In this document: positions 5,871 to 46,553 of the stretch, one piece after another
Layout of the letters: every line of letters begins with the position of its first letter
Numbering within the stretch: position 1 is the first letter of the stretch
From: a bacterium
Lineage (GTDB): Bacteria; Bdellovibrionota_C; UBA2361; RFPC01
DNA: 46,553 nt
Reading direction: 5' to 3'
Assembly: GCA_022763385.1 (NCBI GenBank)
Contig: JALEGQ010000190.1
Span: forward strand, 1-46,553
The notes under the pieces: generated by a model
Seen by the model: only the letters and a program-made list of their open reading frames with translations
The model's database searches: none
Told to the model about the DNA's origin: nothing
Made by a program: the position numbers and the translations under genes

Positions 5871-7658
5871 TTACTGGGAAAGTTGGACGGCTTGGAGGTT
5901 TATCTGCATTTCGGTGTTTCCGAAATAGGTGTTGAGGTCAGCTTTTCCTACGATGTCTACGGTGTGACCGACTACGAGGGCTGGGTGGCTCACTGTCCGC
6001 CACATCATACCGGAGATCTCGTGTTTTCCATCAGAGAGGGTTGCCTTGATGTGTGCGTCTTTTAAGAGCTTAATTGACTTTACTTTCAGGGAGCGGAGTA
6101 GGAGTTGAGGGCTCGGATTTCCAATTCCGAGAGGCTCAAACCTTCTTAACTCACGAACTACTGCCGGAGTGAGTTCGCTGAGATTACATTCTGTATCAGC
6201 CTCAACGGTAGGATGAGTTTCTATATCCTTGAGCATCTCTTTGCTCTCTGCTTCGAACGCTCGAGCGAACATCTCTACATTCTCTTCGGCAAGGCTAAAA
6301 CCTCCGGCTCCATCATGGCCTCCGAACTGGATCAAATGATCCTGAACTCGGCTGAGGAGTTCAACAACACTCATTCCCTTTATTCCACGCACCGATCCTT
6401 TAAACTTTCCATCGTCATAACCAAGAACAGCTGCCGGTCGATAGAAATGCTCCACTAAGCGCTGGGCAACTATGCCGATTACTCCGGTATGAAAATCCTT
6501 ATCCCATACGACGAGTCCATCCGGCAGTCCATCTGGGGAAGAGCTCTGTCTTTCTTGAATTTGCTGTAACGCACCAGTTTTCACCTTCTCCTCAGTCGCC
6601 TGTCGCTCGAGGTTTAGACGGTGAAGTTTCTTTGCGAGTTTTTCTGCTTTTTTCTCACTATTAGTGGTAAGGAGATCTATAACAAGCTCTCCACTAACCA
6701 TTCGGCCAGCAGCATTCAGTCGTGGACCTATCCCAAAGGAGACATTGGAACAGGTAATGTTTCCTCGCGCGCCAATAACACTTTTGAGCGCGTTTAAACC
6801 GACTCGTTCCGTTTTAGAGAGATTCTCTAGCCCCCTGCGTGCAATAATTCGATTTGCTCCACGCAACGGAACCATATCGCAGATCGTACCGAGGCAGGCG
6901 AGATCGAGATATTTTTTCGGATCAAGGTGCTCTTTTTTTTCTTGCGCAACATGAGAATACTTCTCTTCCTGCAACTTTCGGTTGAGAACGACGATAAGGT
7001 ACCAACCAAGTCCTGCGGCACAGAGAGTTCCTTCTGCAAATCCACAACCTTCTTGATGAGGATTAACAAAAATATCTGCGGGTGGATTCTCTCGTACGTG
7101 ATGATGATCTATGACAATGGTAAAGAGATCATGTGAACGAGCAAGTTCCAGTTCAGTGCCATTTGTCGTTCCATAGTCGATTGTAAGTAAGACCTTATGT
7201 CCATGCTTTTTCGCATCGAGTACGATTCTTTCGTTCAGTCCATATCCCTCATGGAAACGGTCAGGAACATATACCTGAGAACGTATTCCTGCCTTCTTGA
7301 GGAAATCGTGAACAAGAGAACCACCGGAAAGTCCATCAACGTCAAAGTCACAAGCGATAGCAATTCCTCTGTCTTGCGTCCCATACTCCAGAATTGCTTC
7401 TGCTGCCGCTTCGATGTTCTTTAATTGAGAGGGGTCGGGAAGTCCGCTCTTGAGGGTAGGAACGAGATAGTTCTTTAAATCTTCACCAACAGAAAAACCT
7501 CTTGCCGAAAGAACTCGACTTGTAAGCGGGCTAAGCGAAAAGGAGTAGGAGATCTCTTCCGCAGCCTCTAATACCTGTTCTCGGACGCGAACTCTCTTCA
7601 AAATTTTAGGAATAGGGGTGTTCTTTTTATGGCCGCTCATTAAGGAAGAGCGTATCAC
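5871..7658 (-). CDS. recJ: Single-stranded-DNA-specific 5'-3' exonuclease RecJ
   Basis: The protein has the DHH/DHHA1 architecture. Counting from my start these are: motif I CDFDVDG (about 103-109), motif II LTIDYGTTN (Asp about 161), the DHH triad in VIDHHHV (about 184), then NPHQEGC, and in the DHHA1 half GGHDGAGGFSL. RecJ degrades ssDNA 5' to 3' in RecFOR recombination, mismatch and base-excision repair, using Mn or Mg held by the Asp/His residues. I chose the GTG at 7658 because AAGGGAG lies 5 bases upstream; it gives 595 residues, close to the family norm. An ATG at 7640 is six codons further in and lacks a binding site. An ATG at 7826 would overlap the upstream gene by 104 bp. The gene probably shares a transcript with the upstream minus-strand genes. 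Confidence 0.93.
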   Translation of the reverse strand: MIRSSLMSGHKKNTPIPKILKRVRVREQVLEAAEEISYSFSLSPLTSRVLSARGFSVGEDLKNYLVPTLKSGLPDPSQLKNIEAAAEAILEYGTQDRGIAIACDFDVDGLSGGSLVHDFLKKAGIRSQVYVPDRFHEGYGLNERIVLDAKKHGHKVLLTIDYGTTNGTELELARSHDLFTIVIDHHHVRENPPADIFVNPHQEGCGFAEGTLCAAGLGWYLIVVLNRKLQEEKYSHVAQEKKEHLDPKKYLDLACLGTICDMVPLRGANRIIARRGLENLSKTERVGLNALKSVIGARGNITCSNVSFGIGPRLNAAGRMVSGELVIDLLTTNSEKKAEKLAKKLHRLNLERQATEEKVKTGALQQIQERQSSSPDGLPDGLVVWDKDFHTGVIGIVAQRLVEHFYRPAAVLGYDDGKFKGSVRGIKGMSVVELLSRVQDHLIQFGGHDGAGGFSLAEENVEMFARAFEAESKEMLKDIETHPTVEADTECNLSELTPAVVRELRRFEPLGIGNPSPQLLLRSLKVKSIKLLKDAHIKATLSDGKHEISGMMWRTVSHPALVVGHTVDIVGKADLNTYFGNTEMQINLQAVQLSQ

Positions 7659-7722
7659 AGAGCTCCCTTCTTTCCATAGTGAAGCCGTACGGTGCTCTTT
7701 AGAAAGGGCAGATCTTGGCGGT

Positions 7723-8244
7723 TTATTCAGCTCGTCGAAGATAATCTGACGGGAGGGATTCTGGTTCCGAAAAGAGCGTTCTTCGTTTTTCCCGAAGTGT
7801 TTGCTCCACTGCTTTTGAGGCAGCATCTATGACGGTGGTTTCCAGCTTTTCCATGCTCTTGATAATCGCTTCCATCTTTTGTACGGCGAGCGAATCTCCT
7901 TCGAGTTGGGGCTCAATCTCAGCAAGCCTCATCAGCACTGATTTTTCAGTCTCGTAGATGTCTTTGCCAACCTTTCGAGCAATGGTAATAGGAACTTGAC
8001 CCGTCATGTTCTCCAGCAATTCATCATAATCTCGCTTCATCTTCTCTTGTTTTTGAGCAAGAAGTCCTTCGACTTTCTTCAAGAGACCAAAGGTCTCTCT
8101 GTTGAGTCGTGTCCTCTCTTTCGCAGCGGTTCGAAGCGAGAGTAATACCGTTATTGCGGTTCCGAGGTTGAGTATAACAACGCCGGCAAGGGAGACTCCC
8201 CACCAGCTATTGTTCGTTATGAGATCTGCCAAATTCCCCGCCAT
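7723..8244 (-). CDS. Membrane-anchored coiled-coil protein, function unknown
   Basis: This 173-residue protein has one N-terminal membrane helix (about residues 14-37, WWGVSLAGVVILNLGTAITV). A long, charged and probably coiled-coil cytoplasmic region follows (LLKKVEGLLAQKQEKMKRDY, then a second helix around residues 95-155). No catalytic motif is visible. The shape resembles small chemoreceptor-like or RmuC-like scaffolds, without enough sequence to claim either. It sits 64 bp upstream of recJ on the same strand, so co-transcription is likely, but a link to repair is only positional. I do not recognise the family. Confidence 0.7.
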   Translation of the reverse strand: MAGNLADLITNNSWWGVSLAGVVILNLGTAITVLLSLRTAAKERTRLNRETFGLLKKVEGLLAQKQEKMKRDYDELLENMTGQVPITIARKVGKDIYETEKSVLMRLAEIEPQLEGDSLAVQKMEAIIKSMEKLETTVIDAASKAVEQTLREKRRTLFSEPESLPSDYLRRAE

Positions 8245-21064: not shown

Positions 21065-22123
21065 TCACTGCTGAAAGCAGATCTTCTCGGCGATGCGCTC
21101 GAGCTCCTCGTGAGAGAAATAGTCAATCGTAATCTTTCCTTTTCCAGCGGACTTTTCGTGAACTCCCACCTTGGCGCCGAGGGTCTTCTGGAGCTCGTCA
21201 ACGATATCACGAAACTTCTCCTGATCTGCTGAGGTGCTTCCTGTCTTTCGTTGATTGCTCTTTAGCGTCACTTTGCGCCCGACAATCCGTTCAAGCTCAC
21301 GAACACTCATCCCCTCACCCACAACTTTTGCCGCAAGGGCGAGTTGAAGCTTCGGTTCCTTTACCGTCAAGATGGCCTTGGCGTGCCCGACAGAGATCTC
21401 TCCTCGCTCAAGTTGATCCTGTACCGAGGTTGGGAGCTTGAGGAGTCGAATCAAATTGGAAACCGTCGCCCGCTCTTTTCCGACCTTCTCAGCTACTTCG
21501 GCTTGGGTAAGGTGGAAGCGGGTAATAAGCTCTTGGTAGCCACGGGCTTCCTCGAGAGCGGTAAGGTCAGAGCGCTGTACGTTCTCAACGAGAGAGATCT
21601 CAAGACAGTCGAGATCGCTCATTTCCCTAATGATTACAGGGAGTTGGGCTATCTTTAGCTCGGAGGCTGCCCTCCACCTTCGCTCTCCGGCAACGATCTG
21701 GAGCTCTTGGCTTTCTGGGGTCGGGCGAACCAGAATTGGTTGAAGAAGTCCGTGATTTCGGATCGAATGTACGAGCTCTTGAACTTCCTGCTCATCGAAG
21801 AACTTCCGTGGTTGGTCCGGATTCGGAACAACCCGTCCTCTTGGGACGAACTGGACAAGCCCAGCTTCGGCTGCCTCGCTCGGAGGAGCTTCTGTGTTTG
21901 TCGTTGGCATCTGAACAATTTTCTCTGAAGCTTTTCCTGAGCTGCTTTTCTCTTCTGAAGTGGAGGCTCGCTGAGAGGAGGCCTTCTTCTTGGAGGGAGA
22001 AGTTTCTGTGGAGTCCGAGGCCTGCTCACCTTCGGTCTCGAGCTTCACGGCGACCGGCTGAGAAGAGATAAGAGCCCCAAGTCCCCTCCCCAGCCCACGT
22101 TTCTTTTTTCCAGCAACAGCCAT
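21065..22123 (-). CDS. parB: Chromosome-partitioning protein ParB (Spo0J family)
   Basis: ParB is a CTP-dependent DNA clamp loaded at parS. The N-terminal KKRGLGRGLGALI (6-19) is the ParA-activating peptide. A low-complexity Ser/Lys/Glu linker (about 22-88) makes this 352-residue protein longer than most. The CTP-binding ParB/Srx domain follows with NPDQPRKFF, GERRWRA (GERR, about 146-149) and ENVQR (180-184). Next come the helix-turn-helix (LTQAEVAEKVGKERATVSNL, about 206-225) and a C-terminal dimerisation domain. GGGGAGA precedes the ATG. Four candidate parS sites lie within 1.2 kb. Confidence 0.96.
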   Translation of the reverse strand: MAVAGKKKRGLGRGLGALISSQPVAVKLETEGEQASDSTETSPSKKKASSQRASTSEEKSSSGKASEKIVQMPTTNTEAPPSEAAEAGLVQFVPRGRVVPNPDQPRKFFDEQEVQELVHSIRNHGLLQPILVRPTPESQELQIVAGERRWRAASELKIAQLPVIIREMSDLDCLEISLVENVQRSDLTALEEARGYQELITRFHLTQAEVAEKVGKERATVSNLIRLLKLPTSVQDQLERGEISVGHAKAILTVKEPKLQLALAAKVVGEGMSVRELERIVGRKVTLKSNQRKTGSTSADQEKFRDIVDELQKTLGAKVGVHEKSAGKGKITIDYFSHEELERIAEKICFQQ

Positions 22124-22185: not shown

Positions 22186-22201
22186 TGTTCCACGTGGAAC
22201 A
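22186..22201. promoter_or_regulatory. parS: parS site 1 (parA-parB intergenic)
   Basis: A perfect 16-bp palindrome TGTTCCACGTGGAACA, matching the known bacterial parS consensus TGTTNCACGTGNAACA. It lies 62 bp upstream of the parB start and 10 bp before the parA stop region, so bound ParB could also repress its own gene. Confidence 0.93.
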
Positions 22202-22210
22202 CTACACATA

Positions 22211-23023
22211 CTACGAATTTGCGACCTTCCCCCGAGGGGAGTGTGAGAGAATCTCTCCCTCCCCTGTACGCTCAACTACTTCCCGGGCAAGTTTCTCGTA
22301 AGCCCGAGCGCCGGTGCTCTCTGGGTCATAGAGCGAGATCGGAAGGCCGTGGCTTGGGCATTCTGAGAGGCGGACGCTTCGCGGAATCACTGCCTCGAAG
22401 CTCTTCTCGCCAAAGTGGCCCCGTACCTCCTCGAGTACCTGACGAGAGAGGTTCGTCCGCCCATCGTACATGGTGACAAACACCCCGAGAATGTCGAGGC
22501 CGGGATTAAAGGTGTCTTGAACAAATGAGATCGTCTCCATCAGTGCGCTGAGCCCTTCCAGGGCATAGTATTCAGCTTGCATCGGGATGATGACCGAGTG
22601 AGCCGCTCCAAGGGCGTTGAGCGAGAGGAGCCCTGAAGAGGGTGGGCAGTCTATGAGGATGAAGTCGTAGCGAGATTTTAAGAGCTGAAGTTGAGTCTTT
22701 AAGATGAGCTCCCGGCCCGCCGTCTTGCCAAGCTCGATCTCGACACCCACCAGGTCCTTAGAGGAGGGCGCCACGTCAAGCCCTTTGACGGCGGAGGGGC
22801 GGAGGACGTCTCTCAGGGTGACCCGGCCAAAGAACATATCGAAGAGGTCTTGTCCTTCCTCGCGAATCTCGACACCGAGACCACTTGTCGCGTTTCCCTG
22901 GGGGTCAAAGTCTACGAGAAGAGTTCGAAAGCCGAACTGCGCGAGGTAGCTGCTGAGGGTTACGGCGGTAGTCGTCTTGCCGACGCCGCCTTTCTGATTG
23001 GTTACCGCTATCACTGTCGTCAT
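22211..23023 (-). CDS. parA: Chromosome-partitioning ATPase ParA (Soj family)
   Basis: The 270-residue ATPase starts MTTVIAVTNQKGGVGKTTT, with the deviant Walker A at residues 11-18 (signature Lys11). LLVDFDPQGNAT (switch I) and FILIDCPPSSG (Walker B) follow. ATP-bound ParA dimers coat the nucleoid and are released by ParB, which moves the origin region. I chose the ATG at 23023; a TTG twelve codons upstream would add a non-homologous extension. No membrane-targeting helix typical of MinD is visible. parB follows after an 87-bp gap containing parS 1. Confidence 0.95.
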   Translation of the reverse strand: MTTVIAVTNQKGGVGKTTTAVTLSSYLAQFGFRTLLVDFDPQGNATSGLGVEIREEGQDLFDMFFGRVTLRDVLRPSAVKGLDVAPSSKDLVGVEIELGKTAGRELILKTQLQLLKSRYDFILIDCPPSSGLLSLNALGAAHSVIIPMQAEYYALEGLSALMETISFVQDTFNPGLDILGVFVTMYDGRTNLSRQVLEEVRGHFGEKSFEAVIPRSVRLSECPSHGLPISLYDPESTGARAYEKLAREVVERTGEGEILSHSPRGKVANS

Positions 23024-23097
23024 AGACAGATGTCCTACCACTTTCCTTTCTGGAGGCAAAGCGTATTCAGAAAAATTTCAGAAGTGAGGGCCGGGAG

Positions 23098-23113
23098 TGT
23101 TCCACGTGGAACA
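23098..23113. promoter_or_regulatory. parS: parS site 2
   Basis: TGTTCCACGTGGAACA, a perfect match, 75 bp upstream of the parA start. It is the first of three sites in the 245-bp non-coding stretch before parA. Confidence 0.93.
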
Positions 23114-23155
23114 GTTGGCGTGGCTGTCACGCCTCGGTCATAAACGAGCGTGCTC

Positions 23156-23231
23156 TGCAGTCACCGCGAAGAAGTGTTCCACGTGGAACGTGAGAGGCAG
23201 GACGGGGAGGGGGGGCTTTTGCAGTCACCGC
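23156..23231. repeat. TGCAGTCACCGC direct repeat next to parS sites 3 and 4
   Basis: TGCAGTCACCGC occurs at 23156-23167 and 23220-23231, each 7-9 bp to the left of a parS palindrome. The 64-bp repeat spacing nearly equals the 66-bp parS spacing, so a roughly 65-bp unit of repeat plus parS seems to have been duplicated. Function of the repeat is unknown. Confidence 0.6.
23175..23190. promoter_or_regulatory. parS: parS site 3 (one mismatch)
   Basis: TGTTCCACGTGGAACG differs from the perfect palindrome only in the last base. It lies 61 bp from site 2 and 50 bp from site 4, close enough for ParB clamps to interact at once. Confidence 0.88.
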
Positions 23232-23240
23232 AATTGGCGA

Positions 23241-23256
23241 TGTTCCACGTGGAACA
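23241..23256. promoter_or_regulatory. parS: parS site 4
   Basis: TGTTCCACGTGGAACA lies inside a longer perfect palindrome of 24 bp (23237-23260, adding GCGA and TCGC arms). It ends 8 bp before the 3' end of the neighbouring 142-residue gene. Confidence 0.93.
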
Positions 23257-25855: not shown

Positions 25856-28516
25856 ATGAAACGACAACTTTCACTCCTCCCGAGCGGTTCATTTATTCTC
25901 GAGAACGATACATCTGTTCGTGCGATCTCAGAACAACAGCGCGAGATCGAAGACCTCTTTGAGAAGTATTTTCATGAAGATCCCTGTTCTGCGCTCTTTT
26001 ATCTCGGGGTCCTGAAGGGCGAGTTCGACTTTTCACCCTCTCTCGCCTTTTGGCGAGGCTTTGCCCATGAGTTCACCGAAAAGCTTCGCCTCTCTCCTGA
26101 CATTGAGACAGTGAGAGAAAAGGGGAGTGTCGACGGTGACCGAGCCGCTTTCCAGCAGCACTGTCTCCGGGCTCCCTTTATGCAGGGGGCCGAATATCTC
26201 ACTCCTGAACTGCTTGAAGATATCTGGAGCGATCTCAATTCCTTTTTTCAGAGATCGATCGGTTCGTTCACCGGATCTGTCGAGGATTTCTATCGCCAGT
26301 ACGTTCCAGATGCTCATCTCCTTGGAAAAGTATATTTCCATCTCGTGGAGAACAAGAAACGCCAACGTTCCCCTTTCGTTTTTCTCGCCACCTATGCTGC
26401 AACGATCGGAAACAAGGGGAGTTCGAAGCACCGTCCTCTGAAACACGCCCTCTCTGAATATGAAAAAGACGAGCCAAAGCTTCTTGAGCTCCTCTCTACG
26501 GTCAAAACGGCAGCTCAACGGAGCCCTTTTATCGCAGATCTCCTGGAGAAAGGAGAACTTTTTTACCCGTTACTCTTGAGAAGTGATGACGCATACACCT
26601 TTCTTATGGAAGTCCCCCTCTATGAGGAGGCGGGCATTCTCTGTCGAATTCCGAACTGGTGGAAGCGTGCTGGTTCGCGAGCATCTGTGAGCGTTACCGT
26701 AGGGAACAAGAAGAACTCCCTTCTTGGTCTTGAGTCACTGATCGACTTCACCCCAGAGCTTGTCCTTGATGATCTGAAGCTCTCAGAAGCTGAAATGAAA
26801 CGACTTCTGGAGGAGTCGGAGGGATTGAGGCTCATCAAGGGGAAGTGGGTACAGGTGAATCACGATCAACTCCGAAATGCCCTCAAGAGTTGGGAGCACG
26901 CCAATGACCTCGTCGCCGATGGTAAGCTCTCACTCTCAGAGGCAGTCCGCCTCCTTATGGCTCCGGAGCTTGCCCTTTCAGAGAAGCTCGAGGAGAGCTC
27001 TCTTCAGGTATCAACGGGCAAGTGGCTTGCTTCACTGTTTGAGAAGATGCAGAACCCAGAGCTTGTTCGTTCGGTTTCACCTGGCAAAGACTTTGCCGGA
27101 AAGCTGAGGCCATACCAGCAGAACGGACTGAATTGGCTTCTCTTGCTTGACTCGCTTGGCCTCGGAGCATGCCTTGCCGATGATATGGGCCTTGGCAAAA
27201 CGGTACAGATTCTCTCTTTTCTCAATATCCTTCGTCGCAGAAAAGAGCGTTCTTCCAATCTCCTGGTCGTTCCAGCTTCACTCGTATCCAATTGGATCTC
27301 CGAGATAGAGAAATTTAGTCCAAAGCTCACATTCAAGATAGCACATCCGAGTGGTGGTGAGAGCCGCTTGGGGAAGGAGTGCGAGGAGGAAGAACTTGAG
27401 AAGGTGGATCTCGTTATTACGACCTACAGCTTAGTAAAGAGATATCAATGGATGAGAGAGTTCGAGTGGAATTACGTTATCCTCGACGAAGCTCAGGCAA
27501 TTAAAAATTCCGGGACAGCGCAAACTCGAGCGATTAAGAAGATCAAGAGCAAGAATCGAATCGCTCTTACCGGAACACCGATTGAAAACAGAGTCTCTGA
27601 CCTCTGGTCGCTCTTTGATTTTTTAAATCCAGGACTGCTCGGAACGGCAAAAGAGTTCGAGTCACTCTGTAAGGATCGCAAGGGAGAGTCCCCTAGCTAT
27701 TCGAAGATTCGAGCTGTTACCAACCCCTACATTCTCCGTCGCCTGAAGACAGATAAAACGATCATCTCTGATCTTCCGGATAAGGTAGAGGTCGATACAT
27801 ATGCCACCCTCAGCAAAGAACAGGTAGTACTCTACAAACAACTTGTTAAAGATCTGAAAGAATCAATTGAAGAGGCAGATGGTATACAGCGGCGAGGACT
27901 GGTGCTCGGAAGTCTCATGAAGTTTAAGCAGCTCTGCAACCATCCCTCTCACTACCTTGGACAGGAAGAGTACAAAGAATCTCAGAGCGGAAAGTTTCAA
28001 CGACTTCGCGAAATATGTGAAACCATCTCCGAGAAAAGGGAGAAAGTACTCATTTTTACCCAATTTCGGGAGATTACCGGGCCACTTGCAGATTTTCTCG
28101 AGACAATTTTTTCCCGCAGGGGACTGATACTCACCGGAAGCACCTCAGTAAAGAAGAGAAAAGAACTCGTTTCTGCTTTTCAGAGTGACGAGTACATTCC
28201 GTACTTTATTCTCTCGCTCAAAGCGGGTGGAACCGGTTTAAATCTCACAGCGGCAAACCATGTGGTTCATTTCGACCGGTGGTGGAACCCCGCGGTGGAG
28301 AACCAGGCAACAGATCGCGCCTTTCGAATCGGGCAAAAGAGAAACGTCATGGTTCACAAACTTGTGACGAAAGAGACTATTGAAGAAAAAATCGCCACCA
28401 TGCTCAAGGAGAAGTCAAAGCTCTCCTCCGATATTATTGGCCTCTCCGCTGATAAACTCCTTACCAAAATGAGTGATAGTGAACTCATTGATATGTTTCG
28501 TATGGAAGCAGCCTAA
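25856..28516 (+). CDS. SNF2-family helicase-like ATPase
   Basis: An 886-residue SWI2/SNF2 protein. The N-terminal 400 residues include the SNF2-associated region. The ATPase core has LADDMGLGKT (motif I, about 440-450), VVPASLVSNW (Ia), DEAQAIKN (motif II, about 544), ALTGTPIENR (III), then the second RecA lobe with VLIFTQF, AGGTGLNLTAANHVVHFD and a motif VI phrase ending DRAFRIGQ. Such proteins move along duplex DNA and displace bound proteins. Bacterial members of this size usually pair with a SWIM-domain gene, as here, 11 bp downstream. The start is weakly supported, with GGGG touching the ATG. Confidence 0.92.
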   Translation: MKRQLSLLPSGSFILENDTSVRAISEQQREIEDLFEKYFHEDPCSALFYLGVLKGEFDFSPSLAFWRGFAHEFTEKLRLSPDIETVREKGSVDGDRAAFQQHCLRAPFMQGAEYLTPELLEDIWSDLNSFFQRSIGSFTGSVEDFYRQYVPDAHLLGKVYFHLVENKKRQRSPFVFLATYAATIGNKGSSKHRPLKHALSEYEKDEPKLLELLSTVKTAAQRSPFIADLLEKGELFYPLLLRSDDAYTFLMEVPLYEEAGILCRIPNWWKRAGSRASVSVTVGNKKNSLLGLESLIDFTPELVLDDLKLSEAEMKRLLEESEGLRLIKGKWVQVNHDQLRNALKSWEHANDLVADGKLSLSEAVRLLMAPELALSEKLEESSLQVSTGKWLASLFEKMQNPELVRSVSPGKDFAGKLRPYQQNGLNWLLLLDSLGLGACLADDMGLGKTVQILSFLNILRRRKERSSNLLVVPASLVSNWISEIEKFSPKLTFKIAHPSGGESRLGKECEEEELEKVDLVITTYSLVKRYQWMREFEWNYVILDEAQAIKNSGTAQTRAIKKIKSKNRIALTGTPIENRVSDLWSLFDFLNPGLLGTAKEFESLCKDRKGESPSYSKIRAVTNPYILRRLKTDKTIISDLPDKVEVDTYATLSKEQVVLYKQLVKDLKESIEEADGIQRRGLVLGSLMKFKQLCNHPSHYLGQEEYKESQSGKFQRLREICETISEKREKVLIFTQFREITGPLADFLETIFSRRGLILTGSTSVKKRKELVSAFQSDEYIPYFILSLKAGGTGLNLTAANHVVHFDRWWNPAVENQATDRAFRIGQKRNVMVHKLVTKETIEEKIATMLKEKSKLSSDIIGLSADKLLTKMSDSELIDMFRMEAA

Positions 28517-34860: not shown

Positions 34861-36012
34861 ATGCGTATCGTGGCGGTCTACTATACCCACAAGCGAGGGG
34901 GGTTCTGTAAGCGGCTGTATCGCCTCTTGAATGCCCTTGCTCAGGGGGGGCATGAGGTCACGTACTACTCACTCGACCGGCCTCCAGAGTCGCTCTCTTC
35001 AGCCGTGAACTGTGTGCCGATCCCCTTTCCGCTTAGGGCTCGGAAAGGGCTCTTTTTTTGGGGACTTTTTCTCCTCTGGACTCCGCTCTTTCTCCTGCTC
35101 GCTGTTGCTCGAAATGGCAGGCCGGAGCGGTATCTCGCCTTTAGCTCTTTCTATGCGACGCTCTCTCTGCCGGCTCGTTGGTATTCTTATGCCCCGTGTG
35201 TCCTCTTTCTCCGATCGCTCTCTTTTCAGATAGACCGTATCACCGGAAAACCTCGTTGGTTGAGAGCGATCACTGAAACGGTTGAAAAAATAGGACTCCG
35301 CTCTGCGGATGAGATCGTCTGTATGACCTCAGCGATGCAGAGAGAGGTTGAGCTCTTTCTCGGAAAGGAGCTTCCAAACGTTCAGATCTTGCCGAACGAA
35401 GTTACTCTACAGCCAGCGGGTGAGCGAGAAGCTCTTCGTTGCCAACTCCTCCAGAGGCTCAGCTGTTCCGAGAGTCCTCTCGTGTGCCTTACGAGCGGAG
35501 TACTCGACCAACGAAAAAATATCTCTTTTCTCATCGAGGCCTTCGCCCTGCTCCGGGAACAGATCACCCCGAATGAGATCATCCTCCTCGTCGCCGGAAG
35601 CGGCCCATTGGAGCAAGAACTCCGCACACAACAGGCCCGACACCCTCGGGCCTTTCTCCACTTTCTTGGGTGGCAGGAAGAGATGACACCACTCTATCAC
35701 TCCGCAGATCTCGTGCTTCACCCGGCCCTCCACGAAGGAGTTCCGAATTCAGTCCTCGAGGCCCTCGGTCACCACCTCCCCGTGCTCGTGAGTGACACCC
35801 CAGAACATACCGAGATACTCCCCGCGGAGGAGCTCCGGTTCCACCTTTCGAAACCAGATACCCTGACCGAAAAGCTCACCTCCATCCTGAGAGATCAGAG
35901 TGAACGAGAGAAGATAACAGCGCTTTCTAAAAGCTGTGCAGAAAAGCTCGTCTTCGACTGGGAAAAAGCTGCGGTAGAGATTATTGAGGCAATGCCGAAT
36001 GTTGTCTCGTAG
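34861..36012 (+). CDS. Family GT4 glycosyltransferase
   Basis: A 383-residue GT-B retaining glycosyltransferase. The C-terminal nucleotide-sugar domain has VCLTSGVLDQRKNISFLIEA, LLVAGSGPLEQEL, HFLGWQEEMTPLY and the E-x7-E signature HEGVPNSVLEALG (Glu292 and Glu300). The N-terminal domain starts with RIVAVYYTHKRGGFCKRLY. A hydrophobic stretch near 65-85 (GLFFWGLFLLWTPLFLLLAV) would attach it to the inner membrane. Likely acceptors are surface polysaccharide or glycolipid, but no other such gene is adjacent. The stop overlaps the convergent desaturase by 32 bp. Confidence 0.9.
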   Translation: MRIVAVYYTHKRGGFCKRLYRLLNALAQGGHEVTYYSLDRPPESLSSAVNCVPIPFPLRARKGLFFWGLFLLWTPLFLLLAVARNGRPERYLAFSSFYATLSLPARWYSYAPCVLFLRSLSFQIDRITGKPRWLRAITETVEKIGLRSADEIVCMTSAMQREVELFLGKELPNVQILPNEVTLQPAGEREALRCQLLQRLSCSESPLVCLTSGVLDQRKNISFLIEAFALLREQITPNEIILLVAGSGPLEQELRTQQARHPRAFLHFLGWQEEMTPLYHSADLVLHPALHEGVPNSVLEALGHHLPVLVSDTPEHTEILPAEELRFHLSKPDTLTEKLTSILRDQSEREKITALSKSCAEKLVFDWEKAAVEIIEAMPNVVS

Positions 36013-37201
36013 TAACTGCCTGAGCCTCTTCGGGAAAAATCTGAGGAGCTGACATTGGAGGCGGCTTTTCTGGTAGGGCGGTGAGCTCTCGCATACTGGT
36101 CTTTCCAACGGTAATGTCGAGCATCCGTTTGAAGCGTTTGAAGATGCTCTCTTGGATGTAGGGAATGCCGTACTTTTGGCAGAGGGTTTTTACCTTCGGT
36201 TGGATCTCTCGGTACTTAGTCATGGGGAGGTCGGGAAAGAGGTGGTGTTCGATCTGGTAGTTGAGCCAGATGCTCATGTAATCGGTGAACTCGTCACCGC
36301 AGTGATAATTTGCAGAACCCAGGACCTGGGTGAGATAGAACTCTTCCTTATTATCGTAGTGAAAGTGGAAACGGTAGAGATCGTCCGCAGAGTGATTCGG
36401 GGCGATCACGAGAAAGGAGTGGAAGTTCGTGATGCACTCAGCTAGCAGCTTGTTGACGAGGACACACCAGGCGGCGGTGGTGCCAAACGGAAGAAAGAGG
36501 GCTGGTATCACGGCGAAATGTACCACTCCGTAGGGGAGGTAACACCGCAGCCAGAGTTGTCGAACTGACTTTCGCTGAAACTGGAAGATATTCTTTACGG
36601 TGATAAAGAGAATATTTCCCTTCTTTAACCTCTTCCTCGTCTCTGGGTCGAGCACACTCATCGTGTTCGGTGCATAGTAGGTGTACTTCCAGGTCATCCC
36701 GATCAGGAGGATGATGATATACTTTAAAAAGTACGGCAGCGGCATCCGACGGAGAAACTCGGCGTGTCGTTGGGTGAGATCGGGGTCATCGTCTTCACCG
36801 GTGTGATAGTGGTGGAGGTAGTTGTGTTCGTGGTCCCACGCGTTGGGTTCAATCCAGTCAAACCAGTCGATATACCGCCGCCATCCCCGCGCGAAATGCT
36901 TACTCGTGTATCGCTGTGGAACTCCGGGAACCTTGTCATACCCCCGGTGTGAGATGTGGTGCACTAATAACCACCGGGTGAAGTGACCAAGGCTGATCAG
37001 AAAAGCCGATAGGGGATTGATAAGTAATGGAGCTGTTGCATACCCGAGAGCAGTCGCCACCCTTCCGTACCGCTCGATCTTCCTCAGATGATGAAAATCA
37101 GCCACCGAGAGCGAGCCCTCGATCTCAGTTCGTAGCTCCTCTAACTCACGAGAAAAACCAGCAGTGTCAATCGCACTGAGATCCAGGGAAGGGGAAGGAA
37201 T
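35981..37201 (-). CDS. Membrane fatty-acid desaturase, probable ATT start
   Basis: A di-iron membrane desaturase of 406 residues if started at 37201. His boxes are HHISH (about 81-85), HEHNYLHH (about 124-131) and QIEHH (about 316-320). Gln in place of the first His of box three is common in front-end type enzymes. Four hydrophobic segments separate them. The product introduces a double bond into an acyl chain, adjusting membrane fluidity. The first ATG/GTG/TTG in frame is GTG at 37105, yet the frame stays coding-like for 32 codons upstream (SPSLDLSAIDTAGFSRELEE...), as in related proteins. It reaches an ATT at 37201 with AGAGG 6 bases before it, two codons after an in-frame TAG. The stop overlaps the convergent glycosyltransferase gene. 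Confidence 0.85.
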   Translation of the reverse strand: MPSPSLDLSAIDTAGFSRELEELRTEIEGSLSVADFHHLRKIERYGRVATALGYATAPLLINPLSAFLISLGHFTRWLLVHHISHRGYDKVPGVPQRYTSKHFARGWRRYIDWFDWIEPNAWDHEHNYLHHYHTGEDDDPDLTQRHAEFLRRMPLPYFLKYIIILLIGMTWKYTYYAPNTMSVLDPETRKRLKKGNILFITVKNIFQFQRKSVRQLWLRCYLPYGVVHFAVIPALFLPFGTTAAWCVLVNKLLAECITNFHSFLVIAPNHSADDLYRFHFHYDNKEEFYLTQVLGSANYHCGDEFTDYMSIWLNYQIEHHLFPDLPMTKYREIQPKVKTLCQKYGIPYIQESIFKRFKRMLDITVGKTSMRELTALPEKPPPMSAPQIFPEEAQAVTTRQHSALPQ

Positions 37202-37331
37202 GAGAAACCTCTTCTAAAGTCTTTGCTACCAGCTGCAACAGTTAAGCAGAAGAACTCGTCGGAGGAAACTCCCCGTCTTTCGAATAATCGGTCTGCGGGA
37301 ACTCTCGGTCGAGAAAAGGATCAGGGCATGA

Positions 37332-37395
37332 ATTCCTGATATTTAGTGCGAATCTCAGGATCGTATTCTTGAGCTTTCGTATAAATCTCAGGAAT
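37332..37395. promoter_or_regulatory. Two tandem imperfect dyads upstream of the sigma-factor gene
   Basis: Four half-sites in alternating orientation: ATTCCTGATATTTA at 37332-37345 (+), GAATCTCAGGAT at 37350-37361 (-), ATTCTTGAGCTTTC at 37365-37378 (+), TAAATCTCAGGAAT at 37382-37395 (-). They make two dyads of about 30 bp with a 33-bp period, roughly three helical turns, as expected for dimers bound on one face of the DNA. They lie 65-155 bp upstream of the leader and sigma gene, so they are candidate operators. The binding factor is unknown. Confidence 0.6.
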
Positions 37396-37459
37396 AGGGT
37401 AATATCTTGGGCTTACATCCGATTTTCGCTATTTCTATAGGGGAAGCTGAGGAAAGTTT

Positions 37460-37489
37460 ATGCTCGATAAAAGGCTGCGCATTATATGA
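37460..37489 (+). CDS. Possible 9-residue leader peptide coupled to the sigma-factor gene
   Basis: ATG at 37460 with GAGGA 6 bases upstream encodes MLDKRLRII and stops at a TGA that overlaps the ATG of the sigma gene (ATGA). The sigma gene itself has only a weak binding site, so coupling through this mini-ORF is plausible. The rare ATA as the last sense codon could slow ribosomes. It is too short to judge by composition. Confidence 0.35.
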   Translation: MLDKRLRII

Positions 37490-38931
37490 TAGTGAAGAAT
37501 GATCTGGCGCTTCTTGCTGATGGGGGGTCTCTTGAGGAAGTTGCCATTGAACTCAGTGCTTTTCGACAGGCGGCGCTCGCCAAGAGTGGGGAGCAGCCGC
37601 GGCGGTTGGCTGAGCTTGTTGAGGTCTCTGCTGAGCTGGCGACCGCTTTTGAACGTCGCTCTGAGCTCTTGGCTGAGGGGATCGGCCCTTCTCAGGAGCA
37701 GGTAGAGGCCGTCAGGGAAGTTTTTGGTTGGTTCCGTCCGAGTAATCCTGATGGTCAGTTTTTTCCGTGCTGTGAGATCCGACTGGCAGCACTTCAGTAT
37801 CAGCTGGCGCTGCTTCGCACAGTTGATGTAGTTCCTGTTCTTGAGAAGATCCTCGTCAGAGAGCAAGAAGATCCTTCACCGGAAGTTATTGCAGAGACCC
37901 TGCACCATGAGATAGCACTTCGCGAACAATATGCTCGTCTGGTGACCGAACAATATGCCGATGCCTCTGAGGATTACCAGATTTTTGCTCGTCGATTGAA
38001 TCTTCAGATTAAGCGGAAAGAGATTGATGGAGACCGTAAGTCGATCTTTGAGTGGCAAGACTACCGTAAAATCCACGATGCGGTAGCAGCGCGGAGACCT
38101 GATATCGTTGAGCTGTGGGAGTCGCTCAGTGAACTTGGACATGCCCTTGCGGAACAGAATGCGCGACTCGCTCTCGGCGTTGCGCGCAAAATCAGCCAAA
38201 GTGGCGGCGGAAGATTTTCTCTTGAGGAGCTCACCGGCACTGCCTACGAGGGATTACACAAGGGAGTTGTCAGATATGAGGTCGATACCGGGTATCAACT
38301 GAGTACCTACTGTACCTGGTGGATCCAACAGGCACTTTCACGGGAGGTCGAGTTTGGTGGCAACTCTGTTATTCGATTTCCAAGAGGTGTTTATGATCAG
38401 GCCCTTCGCTATCGCGAACTTCAACAACGACTTGAGAAGGAATATATAACGGTCGCCGAACTTAGGGATCACCTTGACCTTTCAGCAGAGGAGGCGGAGA
38501 AGTTTCTCACGAATATCGCTTTGGTTCGGTCGGCAGCTTCAAGCAACCGACAGATGGAGGTCGCAGCAACCAGGGGAGGAAAGAGAATTGGCGAATTGGT
38601 CTCGAGACTCGCCGGCGCTGCAACAGGCCCTCTTGACTCTCCTGTTATAGGCGCAGAGCAGCACGAAGTTGCCGCCCTGCTTGCGGGTACGGAAAGTCTG
38701 ACCGACCGTGAACGCTACACTCTTACTCACCGACTTGGACTGGAAGGTCAATCGCGCATGACCTTGAAAGAACTCGGCAGTCAGCTCGGTGTAACACGAG
38801 AGCGGATTCGACAGATCGAGAGAGATGGCAAAGAGAAGTTGAAGAGAGTCCTTACGCGAACCCGAAGTGAGCTCCGTCACCTCACTGAGAAGAGAGAGCG
38901 CTCTGTAGACATGCTTGAAGATGAAGCCTAA
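37486..38931 (+). CDS. Sigma70-family RNA polymerase sigma factor
   Basis: A 481-residue factor. Region 2 spans about 225-290 (NARLALGVARKIS, LEELTGTAYEGLHKGVVRYEV, then the -10-binding phrase STYCTWWIQQALSRE). Region 3 covers about 295-345, and region 4 about 404-457, with the helix-turn-helix MTLKELGSQLGVTRERIRQIE. The first 220 residues are an unusual acidic helical extension that does not look like RpoD region 1.1. It could act as an input or anti-sigma-binding domain. So it is probably an alternative group 2/3 factor, not the housekeeping one. Region 2 has YQLSTYCTWW where RpoD has FKFSTYATWW, so promoter choice may be near-canonical. It ends 50 bp inside the convergent 402-residue gene. 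Confidence 0.88.
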   Translation: MIVKNDLALLADGGSLEEVAIELSAFRQAALAKSGEQPRRLAELVEVSAELATAFERRSELLAEGIGPSQEQVEAVREVFGWFRPSNPDGQFFPCCEIRLAALQYQLALLRTVDVVPVLEKILVREQEDPSPEVIAETLHHEIALREQYARLVTEQYADASEDYQIFARRLNLQIKRKEIDGDRKSIFEWQDYRKIHDAVAARRPDIVELWESLSELGHALAEQNARLALGVARKISQSGGGRFSLEELTGTAYEGLHKGVVRYEVDTGYQLSTYCTWWIQQALSREVEFGGNSVIRFPRGVYDQALRYRELQQRLEKEYITVAELRDHLDLSAEEAEKFLTNIALVRSAASSNRQMEVAATRGGKRIGELVSRLAGAATGPLDSPVIGAEQHEVAALLAGTESLTDRERYTLTHRLGLEGQSRMTLKELGSQLGVTRERIRQIERDGKEKLKRVLTRTRSELRHLTEKRERSVDMLEDEA

Positions 38932-40090
38932 GTTCGATATCGAACGGGGTATAGGAGGAGATGCCGTAGCGGAGCACCTCGTCTTGATTCTGCGTTCCGA
39001 GTTCTTCCTGACTAGCCTCGGGATCGATCTCTCCGTTCTCGAGAGCTGAGAGATATCTCGATTTTGCTTGTGCCCACCACCGGCTCTGGAGGTGATCTGG
39101 AAGCTCTCGAGAGACCCCAAGGAGGTAGGAGATCGCGGGCGCTGCGTCTTCTTCTCCTAACGCTGGATCTGATTCGAGTAGTCGTTCACCGATCTCAAAA
39201 ACCCGAGCGCGGTCATATGTTGGAAGTTCTTCGTTTTTGAGTAGCTCGAAAAGAGCGCTCTTGATCGCCTCCTCACACGGCGTACGATCAAGCTCAACTG
39301 GCTCGGCCGGTTTGTCGAGCCGTTCTAGGACTAGGTTCGCACGATGAGTCAGATCGCGAATCGCTTCATTCGCCGCCTCAACCCTTTCCAAGCGTTCGGT
39401 ATGAATAGGTTTTCCCGGTACCGCCGGGAAAGTTTCCTGATGTAGTTCGGTTCCTGCTGGCGCTGCTGCTGCTGGTAGCTCTCTTGCCTTTTCAAGATAC
39501 TCTCGAAAGTTCTCTTGAAACTGGTGTGCCCAAAAACAGGCATCTCTTTCTTTAACCTGATGTACAGTGGCGGCAGATTTCGGCAGAAGCCCTTCAAGGA
39601 ACACCCTCGTAATGACCTCCTGAACCGCCTGCTCATTTTGAGGAGCTATCTCTTTCCCCGCGATAGCTAGCACCCTTTGAAAGCGACCCATTCCGGGAAG
39701 CTCTTCTCCCTCATACCCTTCAATGGCGGTAACAACCTCTCGCAGCTCTTCTACCGTCGCCCACTCCGCCAGGAAGTACCCCTTCCGGAGAAACTCCTTC
39801 AAACTCCTCCCTTCTTCGGGATTGTACAGCAGCGCTGCTGCCTGCACTCCGAGCCGGAGGCGTTCGGTGCGTTGGTTCTCTTCGCCCGGCATTCCACACT
39901 TGACTCCTCTCTTGTCCTCTTCTCCAAAGCGACGGCATCCTTCGGTAGCAATCTGGTCGAGAAACTGCTGCTCACAATCAACAAACCGATCAATAAAATT
40001 CTCCGGGAGATTCGCAGCAGAGAAGACCTCTCCAACGAGCTTCCTCGCCATGTGCTTCAGATTATTTCTCGGTGAAGTTGATGTTCCCAT
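38882..40090 (-). CDS. Protein of unknown function, second gene of a two-gene operon
   Basis: 402 residues, soluble, mostly helical and Glu-rich, with four or five scattered Cys and a Pro/Ala-rich middle (ELPAAAAPAGTELHQETFPA, about 205-225). No motif is recognised. It starts 8 bp after the stop of the 546-residue gene, so the two are translated from one mRNA. An internal ATG 13 codons on is an alternative start. The last 50 bp overlap the end of the sigma-factor gene on the other strand. Helical structure and lack of export signal suggest an intracellular binding protein; function unknown. Confidence 0.72.
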   Translation of the reverse strand: MGTSTSPRNNLKHMARKLVGEVFSAANLPENFIDRFVDCEQQFLDQIATEGCRRFGEEDKRGVKCGMPGEENQRTERLRLGVQAAALLYNPEEGRSLKEFLRKGYFLAEWATVEELREVVTAIEGYEGEELPGMGRFQRVLAIAGKEIAPQNEQAVQEVITRVFLEGLLPKSAATVHQVKERDACFWAHQFQENFREYLEKARELPAAAAPAGTELHQETFPAVPGKPIHTERLERVEAANEAIRDLTHRANLVLERLDKPAEPVELDRTPCEEAIKSALFELLKNEELPTYDRARVFEIGERLLESDPALGEEDAAPAISYLLGVSRELPDHLQSRWWAQAKSRYLSALENGEIDPEASQEELGTQNQDEVLRYGISSYTPFDIELRLHLQACLQSALSSQ

Positions 40091-40098
40091 CGAAGGAC

Positions 40099-41739
40099 CT
40101 ATGCGGCAAAAATGTTGTCGGTTTTCATGCCTTCCTGATACCGGAGATGACGGACACCGACTGCGGTGCTGAAGAAATCGGGCACGCCGATGAGGTTTTT
40201 GTCGTCGCTCGCATAGAGCGCTGCCCGGGTGCCGTAGTCGAGCTTTGCACGTTCTATACGGCTCGGAAGTCCGCTTGCTACGTCCTGCTCGTTATATTGG
40301 GAAGGATCAAGAATCTTCTCGCGAAGGTTGTCGAGCTTTTCAGTAAGTTCGACAACCTGTCTAGCGGAAAAGGCCTCTGGAACGACGAGATGAAGCTTTC
40401 CTCCCCCCTGCCGGAAGAGTGCCTTGATATCAAGTTCTTTCTGGAGGAGATCAACAAACTCTTTTAAAACCCTTCCAAAAGCAGCAAATCCCACCGCTTT
40501 ATTAAAGGGTCCACCGCCGGTAAGTTCGAGCGTAACAACAGAGAAGGGATCGCCCACCTGTATTGAATCGGGGAGGAGCGCTCCAAGGAGTTGGCCAGCG
40601 ACCTTTTCTGCTCGGATAACTCCACTGCCGAGCTCACGATCCGACGAGACCTTTTGTTCCATCTCCCATGCGATCTGCTGCAGCTCCTCAAGGTCTTTTC
40701 CTCCCTGCAATGCTTCCTCGTGAAGGGCTGCCATGTCTTTTTCGAGCTGCACCATCGCCTCTACTTCTGGAACGGTAGCGGTTCGGGGATCTTTCCACGT
40801 GTTGAGATCTTGTGCCGTATCGGCTTCTGCTCCCGATAAGCTCCCCTTCTTTCGTTCGCTCGAACGTTTCTCGGCGAGATCACACGCCATCCGATCTGCA
40901 AGGGGCGAGAGGTCTCCGGTCACTTTGACATGACCAGCCACCAGTGAGAGCACCTTTCGCTCTTCATCAGGAAGGTTCCCAGCGGCGATCTGCTTAATTT
41001 TCTCCGCGTGCTTCTGACGCGCAATTCGGAGGGCGAGCACTCCGCAGGAGATAAAATCTTGTGAGTGAGAAGCATCAGTGGGGACAGAAACTTGTTCCTG
41101 CTTGGCTTTCTCCTTCAGCCACTCGTAATACTTGGGAAGAGTAAAGTCCTCACCGTGTTCTTGAAGATACTCCCGTTGAAGAGCGTTCGCCTCTTCCCGG
41201 AGGAGGGCCAGGGTTTCAGCCCGTTGTACCCGTTCGTCTGTTAATGGGAACAGCTCGTTTCGCCGAGTATTCCAAGCTCTTTCAAAATCCTGGTATCGAG
41301 TGATTGCATCACCCTGGGCGTTATCACATCGGATGATAAACTCATCAAAACCAGGAGCATCAGCACAACTCTCTACTCCTTCATACGCAGGAGCGAGGAG
41401 CGTTGCCGCTTCAGAAAAGATCTGGTCGACTTTGTCTCGAAGGCCACACTCATTTGCTCCGTGAACAAAGGCCGCGTCAGTAAAGGTATGGACAATCGAT
41501 CCACCACACCGTTCGGCAAACTTTCGGAGCTTTTCAGCCGAATAGGTGATCGAGATCGGAAGTCCGATCAGGGGGTGTAACTGCTCTGACGGCGCTTTCG
41601 GAACGGAGATCTCATGGGTCGGAAGTGGTGGAAAACGGAGTTCTTCCTGACGGAAAGGAGTTGCAACGGGCGGGCTCGACGTACCTGTTATCGGTGCCCC
41701 GTCCTCCGCTATGCTATTCTGACTACCCCTTTGCTCCAT
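40099..41739 (-). CDS. Unknown protein with two GGDEF-like remnants
   Basis: 546 residues, soluble. Residues about 80-155 end in APGFDEFIIRCD, resembling the GGDEF turn with GFDEF at 130-134. Residues about 395-475 follow the diguanylate-cyclase pattern more fully (PFNKAVGFAAFGRVLKEFVD, then FRQGGGKLHLVVP, where active enzymes have RxGGDEFxxxLP), but the active-site signature reads GGGKL. Both domains would be catalytically dead. They may bind GTP or cyclic-di-GMP or just each other. Between them lies a charged helical region of about 230 residues. This is my reading of a distant pattern, and a fold search is needed. It is the upstream gene of the pair with the 402-residue protein; no strong ribosome-binding site is visible. 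Confidence 0.65.
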   Translation of the reverse strand: MEQRGSQNSIAEDGAPITGTSSPPVATPFRQEELRFPPLPTHEISVPKAPSEQLHPLIGLPISITYSAEKLRKFAERCGGSIVHTFTDAAFVHGANECGLRDKVDQIFSEAATLLAPAYEGVESCADAPGFDEFIIRCDNAQGDAITRYQDFERAWNTRRNELFPLTDERVQRAETLALLREEANALQREYLQEHGEDFTLPKYYEWLKEKAKQEQVSVPTDASHSQDFISCGVLALRIARQKHAEKIKQIAAGNLPDEERKVLSLVAGHVKVTGDLSPLADRMACDLAEKRSSERKKGSLSGAEADTAQDLNTWKDPRTATVPEVEAMVQLEKDMAALHEEALQGGKDLEELQQIAWEMEQKVSSDRELGSGVIRAEKVAGQLLGALLPDSIQVGDPFSVVTLELTGGGPFNKAVGFAAFGRVLKEFVDLLQKELDIKALFRQGGGKLHLVVPEAFSARQVVELTEKLDNLREKILDPSQYNEQDVASGLPSRIERAKLDYGTRAALYASDDKNLIGVPDFFSTAVGVRHLRYQEGMKTDNIFAA

Positions 41740-44374: not shown

Positions 44375-44382
44375 GGAGGGTG

Positions 44383-45131
44383 ATGGAAGAACTTCTGGAA
44401 GAGCTTGGCCTTAATCGTAGCGAAAGCACGGTGCTCCTCTCCCTGCTTGATTCGGGGGCAAGCTCCGCGGCGCTGCTCGCTCGGCGGACAACCCTCAAGC
44501 GGACGACCGTCTACTCCGCCCTTTCTGAACTCGAGCGACTTGCTATCGTCAGGAGGATCAAGCGGGAGAACCGAACTGTTTTTCAGGCACTGAATCCAGA
44601 AGAGCTCACCGAACTTCTCCGTACTCAAGCGAAGGAAGAGTTTCAAAGCAGACTAAGTACCATTGAGCTCCTCGAACCGAGGCTCGAACGGTTTCCCCTT
44701 CGAAACCGCCATACGGTTGGAGGGTATGAAGTTACGTACACCCGAACGTTAAAGGGGGCACTGAATGTCCTCGATCAAGCCACTACTGTGGGATCTTTAA
44801 TCCGGTCACTGCATTTTATGGAGAATTCGGAGAGCGAGCGAGAGTTGCTTTAAAAGCAAACAAAAAAACGAAACCAAAGATTCGCGACATTGGAATTGAA
44901 GGACCCGGACTTACTGAGTGGAGGCAGTGTGCTCGGGGAAACCCAAACCATCAGGTACGAACGATACGCGGAGACTCAACGCTCTATACCGATCTCCTCC
45001 TGAGCAAAGGGGTCGTGAACCTCTTCAACTACAACCTCGATGAACCGATGGTGATCCAGATCCAACACCCAGATTACTTTCAATTCATGACCATGATATT
45101 CGATAAGCTCTGGATGGGAGCAAGCATCTGA
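44383..45131 (+). pseudogene. TrmB-family transcriptional regulator split by a one-base frameshift
   Basis: The ATG at 44383 (GGAGG just upstream) starts a winged-helix domain: LGLNRSESTVLLSLLDSGA, LARRTTLKRTTVYSALSEL. The frame stops at 44851-44853, giving 156 residues. In another frame, coding resumes without break up to TGA 45129-45131 (IRDIGIEGPGL, TIRGDSTLYTDLLLSKGVVN, HPDYFQFMTMIFDKLW), the C-terminal effector domain seen in bacterial TrmB proteins. One extra T in the TTTT run at 44815-44818 would join them as LHFYGEFGERA and give 249 residues, the family's normal length. So this is a recent pseudogene, a sequencing error or, less likely, a slippage-regulated gene. TrmB proteins normally respond to sugars. 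Confidence 0.8.
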
Positions 45132-45169: not shown

Positions 45170-46553
45170 CTACTTCCCCAGCTCGGTAAGGCCGAACTCT
45201 TTTAACTTGTACAGTAGGGCTCGGTGGCTGATCTCGAGGAGTTTTGCGGCGTGTGTTCGGTTGCCCTTGGTTCGTTCAATGGCTTTCTTGATGAGGGTCA
45301 TCTCTAACGCTTTGGAGTGCTGTTTAATGGAGAGGTTCTCGTCGGAGAGGAGCTCTATTCCTGCACCATCAACTGGGAGGTTATCCTTGCCGAGCATAGC
45401 GCGTATTCCATCGGGAAGCGCTTCGAGAGTGAGGCTCTCTCCGTCGGTCATCACCAGGGCTCGTTCAATGGCGTTCTCCAGCTCGCGAATATTTCCTCGC
45501 CACTCATAGCAGAGCAGGGCCTTCATCACCTCTGGTTCGACCTTCTTGATAGCGAGTCCGAGCCGTTTGTTGTGCTTCTTCATAAAGTGCTCAACAAGTA
45601 CCGGGATATCTTCGGAACGCTCATGGAGGGGAGGAAGGTGAATCGCGACTACATTCAAGCGGTAAAAAAGGTCTTCTCGAAACCGTCCATCGATTACGTC
45701 CTGCTCGAGGTCTCGGAGGGTTGCAGCGATCACCCGGACGTCAATTGAGATACTGTGCTCATCACCAACGGGGCGGATCTGTTGCTCTTGTAGCGCCCGC
45801 AGGAGCTTGACCTGGAGGTGCGGAGGCATCTCACCGATCTCGTCAAGAAAGAGCGTTCCTCCGTTTGCCTCTTCAAAGAGTCCTTTCTTGTCGCGAGAAG
45901 CATCGGTAAAAGCTCCCTTTTTGTGGCCGAAGAGCTCAGACTCCATCAACGCTTCTGGGATGGCGCCACAGTTAATGGCGATAAACGGCTTCCCCCGACG
46001 GGGAGAGTTGTGGTGTACCGCCCGCGCAAGGAGCTCTTTTCCGGTCCCAGATTTTCCCGTGACCAGTACCGTGGTGTGAAACTGGGCAAGTCGTTTTACC
46101 TTTTCGAAGACTTCTTTCATCACCTTACTTTTGGCGATGATGTTTCCGAAGCTATACCGACCCTCAACTTCAGAGCGGAGCTCTTCGTTCTCTTTGCGGA
46201 GTTGCTCCCGTTCTTCTACTTTGCGGAGGGTGAGGATCAGCTCCTCAGGATCAAAGGGCTTTGAGATGTAGTCATAGGCCCCGCGTCGCATCGCTTCTAG
46301 GGCGAGTTCACTACTTCCAAAACCGGTCATGAGGATCACGGCGGTCTCAGGATTTGAGGTGTGGCACCGTTCGATGAATGCCATGCCATCCACCCCGGGC
46401 ATCCGCAGATCACAGAGCACGATATCAACGGGTTCCGAGTCGAGGATCTCAAAGGCTGGCTCAGCCGTTGCCGCTTCCTTTACCTGATATCCGGCAAGTT
46501 GGAGGTTTAAGCGGAGCGACGAGCGAAGGCTCTCTTCATCGTCCACGACCAAC
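45170..46553 (-). CDS. NtrC-family sigma54-dependent response regulator (N-terminus at window edge)
   Basis: The start is just outside the window; about 461 residues are present. The receiver domain begins VVDDEESLR, with phospho-acceptor Asp in VLCDLRMPG and Lys in YISKPFD. A linker helix leads to the AAA+ domain: Walker A GKSGTGKE, ELFGHKKGAFTDA (the sigma54-contact loop, GAFTDA for the usual GAFTGA), Walker B GGTLFLDEIGEM and an arginine-finger region GRFREDLFYRL. A Fis-type helix-turn-helix closes it (KGNRTHAAKLLEISHRALLYKL). It activates sigma54 promoters after phosphorylation by a sensor kinase, probably encoded beyond the right edge. Confidence 0.94.
   Translation of the reverse strand, partial: LVVDDEESLRSSLRLNLQLAGYQVKEAATAEPAFEILDSEPVDIVLCDLRMPGVDGMAFIERCHTSNPETAVILMTGFGSSELALEAMRRGAYDYISKPFDPEELILTLRKVEEREQLRKENEELRSEVEGRYSFGNIIAKSKVMKEVFEKVKRLAQFHTTVLVTGKSGTGKELLARAVHHNSPRRGKPFIAINCGAIPEALMESELFGHKKGAFTDASRDKKGLFEEANGGTLFLDEIGEMPPHLQVKLLRALQEQQIRPVGDEHSISIDVRVIAATLRDLEQDVIDGRFREDLFYRLNVVAIHLPPLHERSEDIPVLVEHFMKKHNKRLGLAIKKVEPEVMKALLCYEWRGNIRELENAIERALVMTDGESLTLEALPDGIRAMLGKDNLPVDGAGIELLSDENLSIKQHSKALEMTLIKKAIERTKGNRTHAAKLLEISHRALLYKLKEFGLTELGK

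Follow-up and report, generated by a model that had tools for sequence, protein, structure and literature searches.

Results

Genes at the locus

The window, meaning the whole stretch of 46,553 bases that was analysed, contains a gene for a sigma-70-type factor and, divergent to it, a gene for a fatty-acid desaturase. The genes of this region are:

35981..37213, minus strand, fatty-acid desaturase, divergent; similarity to relatives is found upstream of the GTG at 37105
37486..38931, plus strand, sigma-70-type factor of 481 aa; regions 2-4 at about residues 220-455 (Pfam, PDB, codon preference)
38882..40090, minus strand, protein of 402 aa with no family assigned; convergent, overlapping the 3' end of the sigma gene
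40099-41739, protein of 546 aa without Pfam match

We consider the sigma gene to be real, since its product scores above the Pfam cut-off for both Sigma70_r2 and r4, matches SigA/RpoD/RpoS in the PDB over residues 215-454 and is encoded in a frame of normal codon preference. The protein has regions 2 to 4 in common with the RpoD/RpoS-like (group 1/2) sigma-70 factors, but it is only about 30-35% identical to them over the core and carries a 200-residue N-terminus of no known family. Residues 1-200 gave no Pfam match, and the first 205 residues found no match in any of the 27 other genomes of the order; even the other genome of the same genus yielded no relative. When the whole protein was used, 55 of 56 other genomes gave matches, essentially to the shared core only and at best with about 30-35% identity. 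No relatives of the sigma factor were found in the genome_contigs and viral_contigs scans, and no orthologue was found in the genomes and contig collections searched. The best NCBIfam match, MzaA, the MZA defence sigma factor, covers the sigma core only with 103.5 bits against a cut-off of 800 and was rejected by the NCBIfam rule. The predicted structure, folded from one sequence, had a mean pLDDT of 41 and was set aside. In one genus of the same order (L044, L046, L047, L048, L049, L052, L053), related sigma factors of about 530-570 aa have a long N-terminus in common, with pairwise identities of about 25-43%; they represent an expansion.

The downstream neighbours are similarly isolated. No homologue of the convergent 402-aa protein was found among 44 other genomes of the class, and the 546-aa protein has a single homologue (37%, in the same genus) among 11 other genomes searched. 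Since the sigma N-terminus and both of these proteins are without, or nearly without, relatives, the locus appears to be young or fast-changing. By eye, residues 390-475 of the 546-aa protein resemble a degenerate GGDEF domain. In the genome of the same genus, its sole homologue found lies next to recJ, a gene that this window contains as well (5871-7826).

In the desaturase frame, similarity to relatives extends past the GTG at 37105 by about 25 residues in the upstream direction, and no ATG, GTG or TTG occurs between this GTG and the stop at 37216. Possibly the gene begins with a rare start codon (ATT or CTG), or the assembly contains an error. Orthologues of the desaturase were found in two of 11 other genomes, with 71% and 66% identity.

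Elsewhere in the window, four parS-like palindromes (TGTTCCACGTGGAACA or one base off) lie at 22186-23256. They adjoin the genes for ParA (22211-23059) and ParB (21065-22123) and thus belong to a chromosome-partition locus, next to which bactofilin and ATP synthase genes are found. An SNF2-type helicase with a DUF3670 domain is encoded at 25856-28516 beside a SWIM-like protein. The helicase scores high against ZorD/DpdE defence models; further components of a system of that kind were not seen.

Architecture of the array

An array of inverted repeats lies in the intergenic region between the divergent desaturase and sigma genes, 91 bp upstream of the sigma start codon. The initial annotation had placed it upstream of an unusual sigma-factor gene, and the gene proved to be both real and unusual. 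The parts of the array are:

37332..37395, no strand, whole array, two 29-bp dyads with a period of 33 (repeat statistics and fold)
37333..37344, plus strand, half-site 1, TTCCTGATATTT, 1 mismatch to TTCCTGAGATTT
37350..37361, minus strand, half-site 2, ATCCTGAGATTC, 2 mismatches to TTCCTGAGATTT
37366..37377, plus strand, half-site 3, TTCTTGAGCTTT, 2 mismatches to TTCCTGAGATTT
37383..37394, minus strand, half-site 4, TTCCTGAGATTT, 0 mismatches

The array and its symmetry are directly visible in the DNA. Four half-sites of 12 nt each alternate in orientation (+ - + -) and are separated by spacers of 5, 4 and 5 nt, forming two dyads with a 5-nt internal spacer and a start-to-start distance of 33 bp. 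The two dyads (repeat family D1, 29 nt) are 76% identical. Taken as a whole, the array is a long imperfect inverted repeat as well, with ungapped 29-nt arms that are 72% complementary. Coordinates, mismatch counts and the shuffles given below confirm the earlier description of four related half-sites in two inverted pairs with a 33-bp period.

The core hexamers (TCCTGA/TCAGGA and variants) are centred at 37336.5, 37357.5, 37369.5 and 37390.5. The steps between them are 21, 12 and 21 bp, or about 2, 1 and 2 helical turns, and because of these steps the half-sites would lie on about one face of a helix with 10.5 bp per turn. The suggestion that the period is close to three turns is therefore supported by the predicted phasing. 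The five departures from the consensus fall at five different positions, none common to two half-sites. A recent duplication, tandem or inverted, would fit this pattern less well than binding sites that have each been kept separately.

To compare the array with chance, every place in the window was scored for the architecture half, spacer, reversed half, twice, with spacers of 2-10 and gaps of 0-20. The score adds up the identities of all six pairs of half-sites and has a maximum of 72. The array reaches 57, and the next best unrelated place in the window 42. In dinucleotide-preserving shuffles of all 46,553 bases, 57 was reached in 0 of 200 and in 1 of 6000 cases, and a Gumbel fit gives about 6e-4 per window. 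The array exceeds chance; the probability in a window this large is about 2e-4 to 6e-4. When the paired columns of the two arms were shuffled, so that the arm pairing was kept, none of 2000 shuffles reached 57; the dyad inside each arm is thus a separate feature, beyond the arm-to-arm pairing. By window-wide and paired-column shuffles alike, the locus has a tandem pair of inverted repeats beyond chance, as we would look for in an operator.

Occurrence of the array

A search of the host genome (86.5% complete) that allowed up to 3 mismatches found the dyad only at its two places within the array, a single occurrence that is observed directly. The genome search for ATTCCTGAGATTTA that had been proposed returned one exact match, at 37382-37395 on the minus strand. 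With up to 2 mismatches it gave 24 matches, against 3 for the reversed control; by our own estimate, which assumes uniform base composition, about 20 would be expected. Two of the 24 fall in the array and 22 are scattered elsewhere; among 21 of these 22 that were checked in place (L150 was left out), none has an inverted partner at the array spacing. In this check, as in those for a second dyad and upstream of other sigma genes and in the fold simulations, the array's own site 4 served as the consensus.

With up to 3 mismatches allowed, the dyad was absent from all 26 relatives, among them the only other genome of the genus, and a 191-bp region around the array has no relative in four family members. 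The array is also absent upstream (up to 400 bp each) of 17 other long sigma genes, all paralogous or distant, where the best four-site score was 36 and the best dyad had 9 mismatches of 24. Moreover, it is absent upstream of the desaturase gene in both relatives that were found to have that gene (L035, L036). Plasmid and phage records contained no match to the array.

When the pattern for one dyad was loosened, genome_contigs gave 49 matching stretches and viral_contigs gave 3. Within 150 bp of the 52 loci that match one loose dyad exactly, no second dyad with fewer than 8 mismatches was found, and single loose dyads in public genomes are probably due to chance. A still looser dyad is uninformative: 26 of 27 genomes match it, the host at 4 places and the other genomes at 0-17 each. 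As far as titles and abstracts show, none of the papers that our searches gave has this motif (CCTGAGATT) in a bacterial operator; we do not claim that the motif is unpublished. A perfect palindrome of 35 bp in Nonlabens xylanidelens (L108:1168-1202), AATGTCCTGAGATTTAAATTAAATCTCAGGACATT, is similar to a single dyad of the array; it is probably unrelated.

Promoters and candidate regulators

Using a standard scan, we found no sigma-70 promoter near the array. A looser scan gave one weak candidate:

37412..37441, plus strand, weak sigma-70-like candidate promoter; CTTACA, 18 nt, TCTATA; only 8 of 12 consensus positions match, below the standard-scan threshold

Transcription from this candidate would start near 37448 and leave the array about 50-115 bp upstream. 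The best sigma-54 promoter scores in 37200-37500 are 15/25 on the plus strand and 17/25 on the minus strand, the latter a score that 304 of the window's 93,074 places attain; a convincing sigma-54 promoter (-24 GG / -12 GC) downstream of the array was not found in this interval.

No regulator gene adjoins the array. Within the window, a response regulator that carries a sigma-54 interaction domain and a Fis-type HTH domain is encoded at 45173-46552, and a TrmB-like winged-helix protein of 157 aa at 44380-44853. Relatives of the latter in the host and in the same order have longer open frames (roughly 256-303 aa), and the other genome of the genus contains no match to it. This TrmB-like protein is a possible candidate for the regulator of the array.

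Discussion

Overall, the array is most likely a DNA operator for two dimers of a regulator of the sigma gene, the desaturase gene, or both. Two regulator dimers, or a single tetramer, would occupy the four 12-bp half-sites on one helix face and would control transcription from the divergent desaturase-sigma region, most likely that of the sigma gene 91 bp downstream. We give a probability of roughly 55% to an operator of two phased dyads with a single target as the best explanation. Several features speak for an operator, namely an array beyond chance with a dyad in each arm, the apparent helical phasing, the unshared departures, the intergenic site and a dyad unique in the genome. Against it stand the lack of the array in all 26 relatives and of a second dyad at the 52 loose-dyad loci, the lack of a regulator gene next to the array and of a good promoter nearby, and the stable stem-loop of the plus strand, which folds better than the minus strand to an extent that the array design does not predict. 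It is from sequence that we infer protein binding, a dimeric regulator and cooperativity, and likewise which gene is the target and whether control is positive or negative. The reading in the initial annotation is supported in part, for the architecture, the phasing and the position; cooperative binding and tight control of the sigma factor are putative. Should the weak promoter at 37412 be the real one, the array lies upstream of it, which would be more in keeping with an activator, or with a repressor that acts by looping, than with one that simply blocks. Since the operator seemingly occurs only at this place, its regulator would be dedicated or local and not global.

The main rival, next after an operator, is a transcribed stem-loop, which we regard as possible though rather doubtful. 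Here the sigma message would start upstream of 37332, and the 64-nt array would form a 5' leader hairpin acting on stability, processing or translation; a 9-codon upstream frame at 37460-37489 may be involved too. This frame (MLDKRLRII) is preceded immediately by AGGAAAG, a good ribosome site, and its TGA overlaps the sigma ATG. The plus strand folds into a single stem-loop of -30.3 kcal/mol (z -4.26, with none of 200 shuffles as good), and the minus strand folds more weakly (-18.7 kcal/mol, z -2.87). We compared these values with 2000 simulated four-site arrays of the same consensus and number of changes. The strand difference exceeds that of 98.3% of them (1.7% show one as large) and gives mild support to a transcribed hairpin; the stability of the plus strand, however, is reached by 13%, so that the hairpin is largely a by-product of the array. 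Moreover, a hairpin requires no dyad within an arm, yet both arms have one. Rfam gave no match up to E = 1, and neither the standard nor a looser scan recognised a promoter upstream of the stem-loop. A terminator was rejected as well: a weak stem inside the array was listed by the scan, but the whole stem is not followed by a T-run.

The array lies in a region common to both divergent genes and could therefore serve the desaturase gene instead of the sigma gene, as a lipid-responsive operator. The upstream limit of the desaturase frame is 37213, which leaves about 120 bp to the array. However, the array is closer to the sigma start, and the absence of the array before the desaturase orthologues of two relatives makes this idea less probable; we regard it as unlikely. 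We consider it very improbable that the repeats are an upstream activating sequence for an activator of the NtrC/XylR kind. Such sigma-54 activators often bind tandem dyads about three turns apart, in line with the 33-bp period, and the response regulator at 45173-46552 has the matching domains. Nevertheless, 29-bp dyads with 12-bp arms are not known as the shape of sigma-54 activator sites, and the interval 37200-37500 lacks a sigma-54 promoter. Scarcely more probable is the remnant of a mobile or repeated palindromic element without regulatory role. Its presence in a single genome without conservation would fit such a remnant, but the array is single copy, does not match the plasmid and phage records, and its substitutions are not common to the copies, unlike what duplication leaves. 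The single copy rules out a REP-like repeated mobile palindrome. A parS or origin element was likewise rejected, as the real parS cluster is 14-15 kb away and differs in sequence; the parS palindrome TGTTYCACGTGRAACA is not found in the array, and all four sites in the window (up to 4 mismatches) lie at 22186-23256.

Two groups of known operators resemble the proposed one in arrangement. The palindromes of ARG boxes are about 18 bp long and nearly abut each other, whereas the dyads of the array measure 29 bp with a period of 33, and the array motif is not known to be related to the ARG box sequence. The paired ARG boxes of ArgR are reported to be tandem palindromes with four half-sites on one DNA face, serving two DNA-binding domain pairs (PMC7248756); the array likewise has two palindromes in tandem, with four half-sites apparently on one face. 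According to a further report (PMC3063778), activators of the XylR/DmpR/NtrC type have their sites between divergent genes, as pairs of inverted repeats that precede a promoter, and the array likewise consists of paired inverted repeats in such a region, but it differs in its motif and is without a detected sigma-54 promoter.

A more far-reaching proposal, speculative and improbable as it stands, is that the lineage-specific sigma factor with its new N-terminal domain and the convergent 402-aa orphan form a newly arisen module. This module would be controlled through a single-target operator of its own, by a dedicated regulator from an unknown family, and possibly both the DNA array and the RNA hairpin would be used.

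Tandem dyad operators are in themselves well known, and a control site of this kind would be ordinary. If the operator reading is true, the array offers a concrete operator with which the regulator of this orphan sigma factor could be fished out, for a lineage that is known here only from genome sequence.
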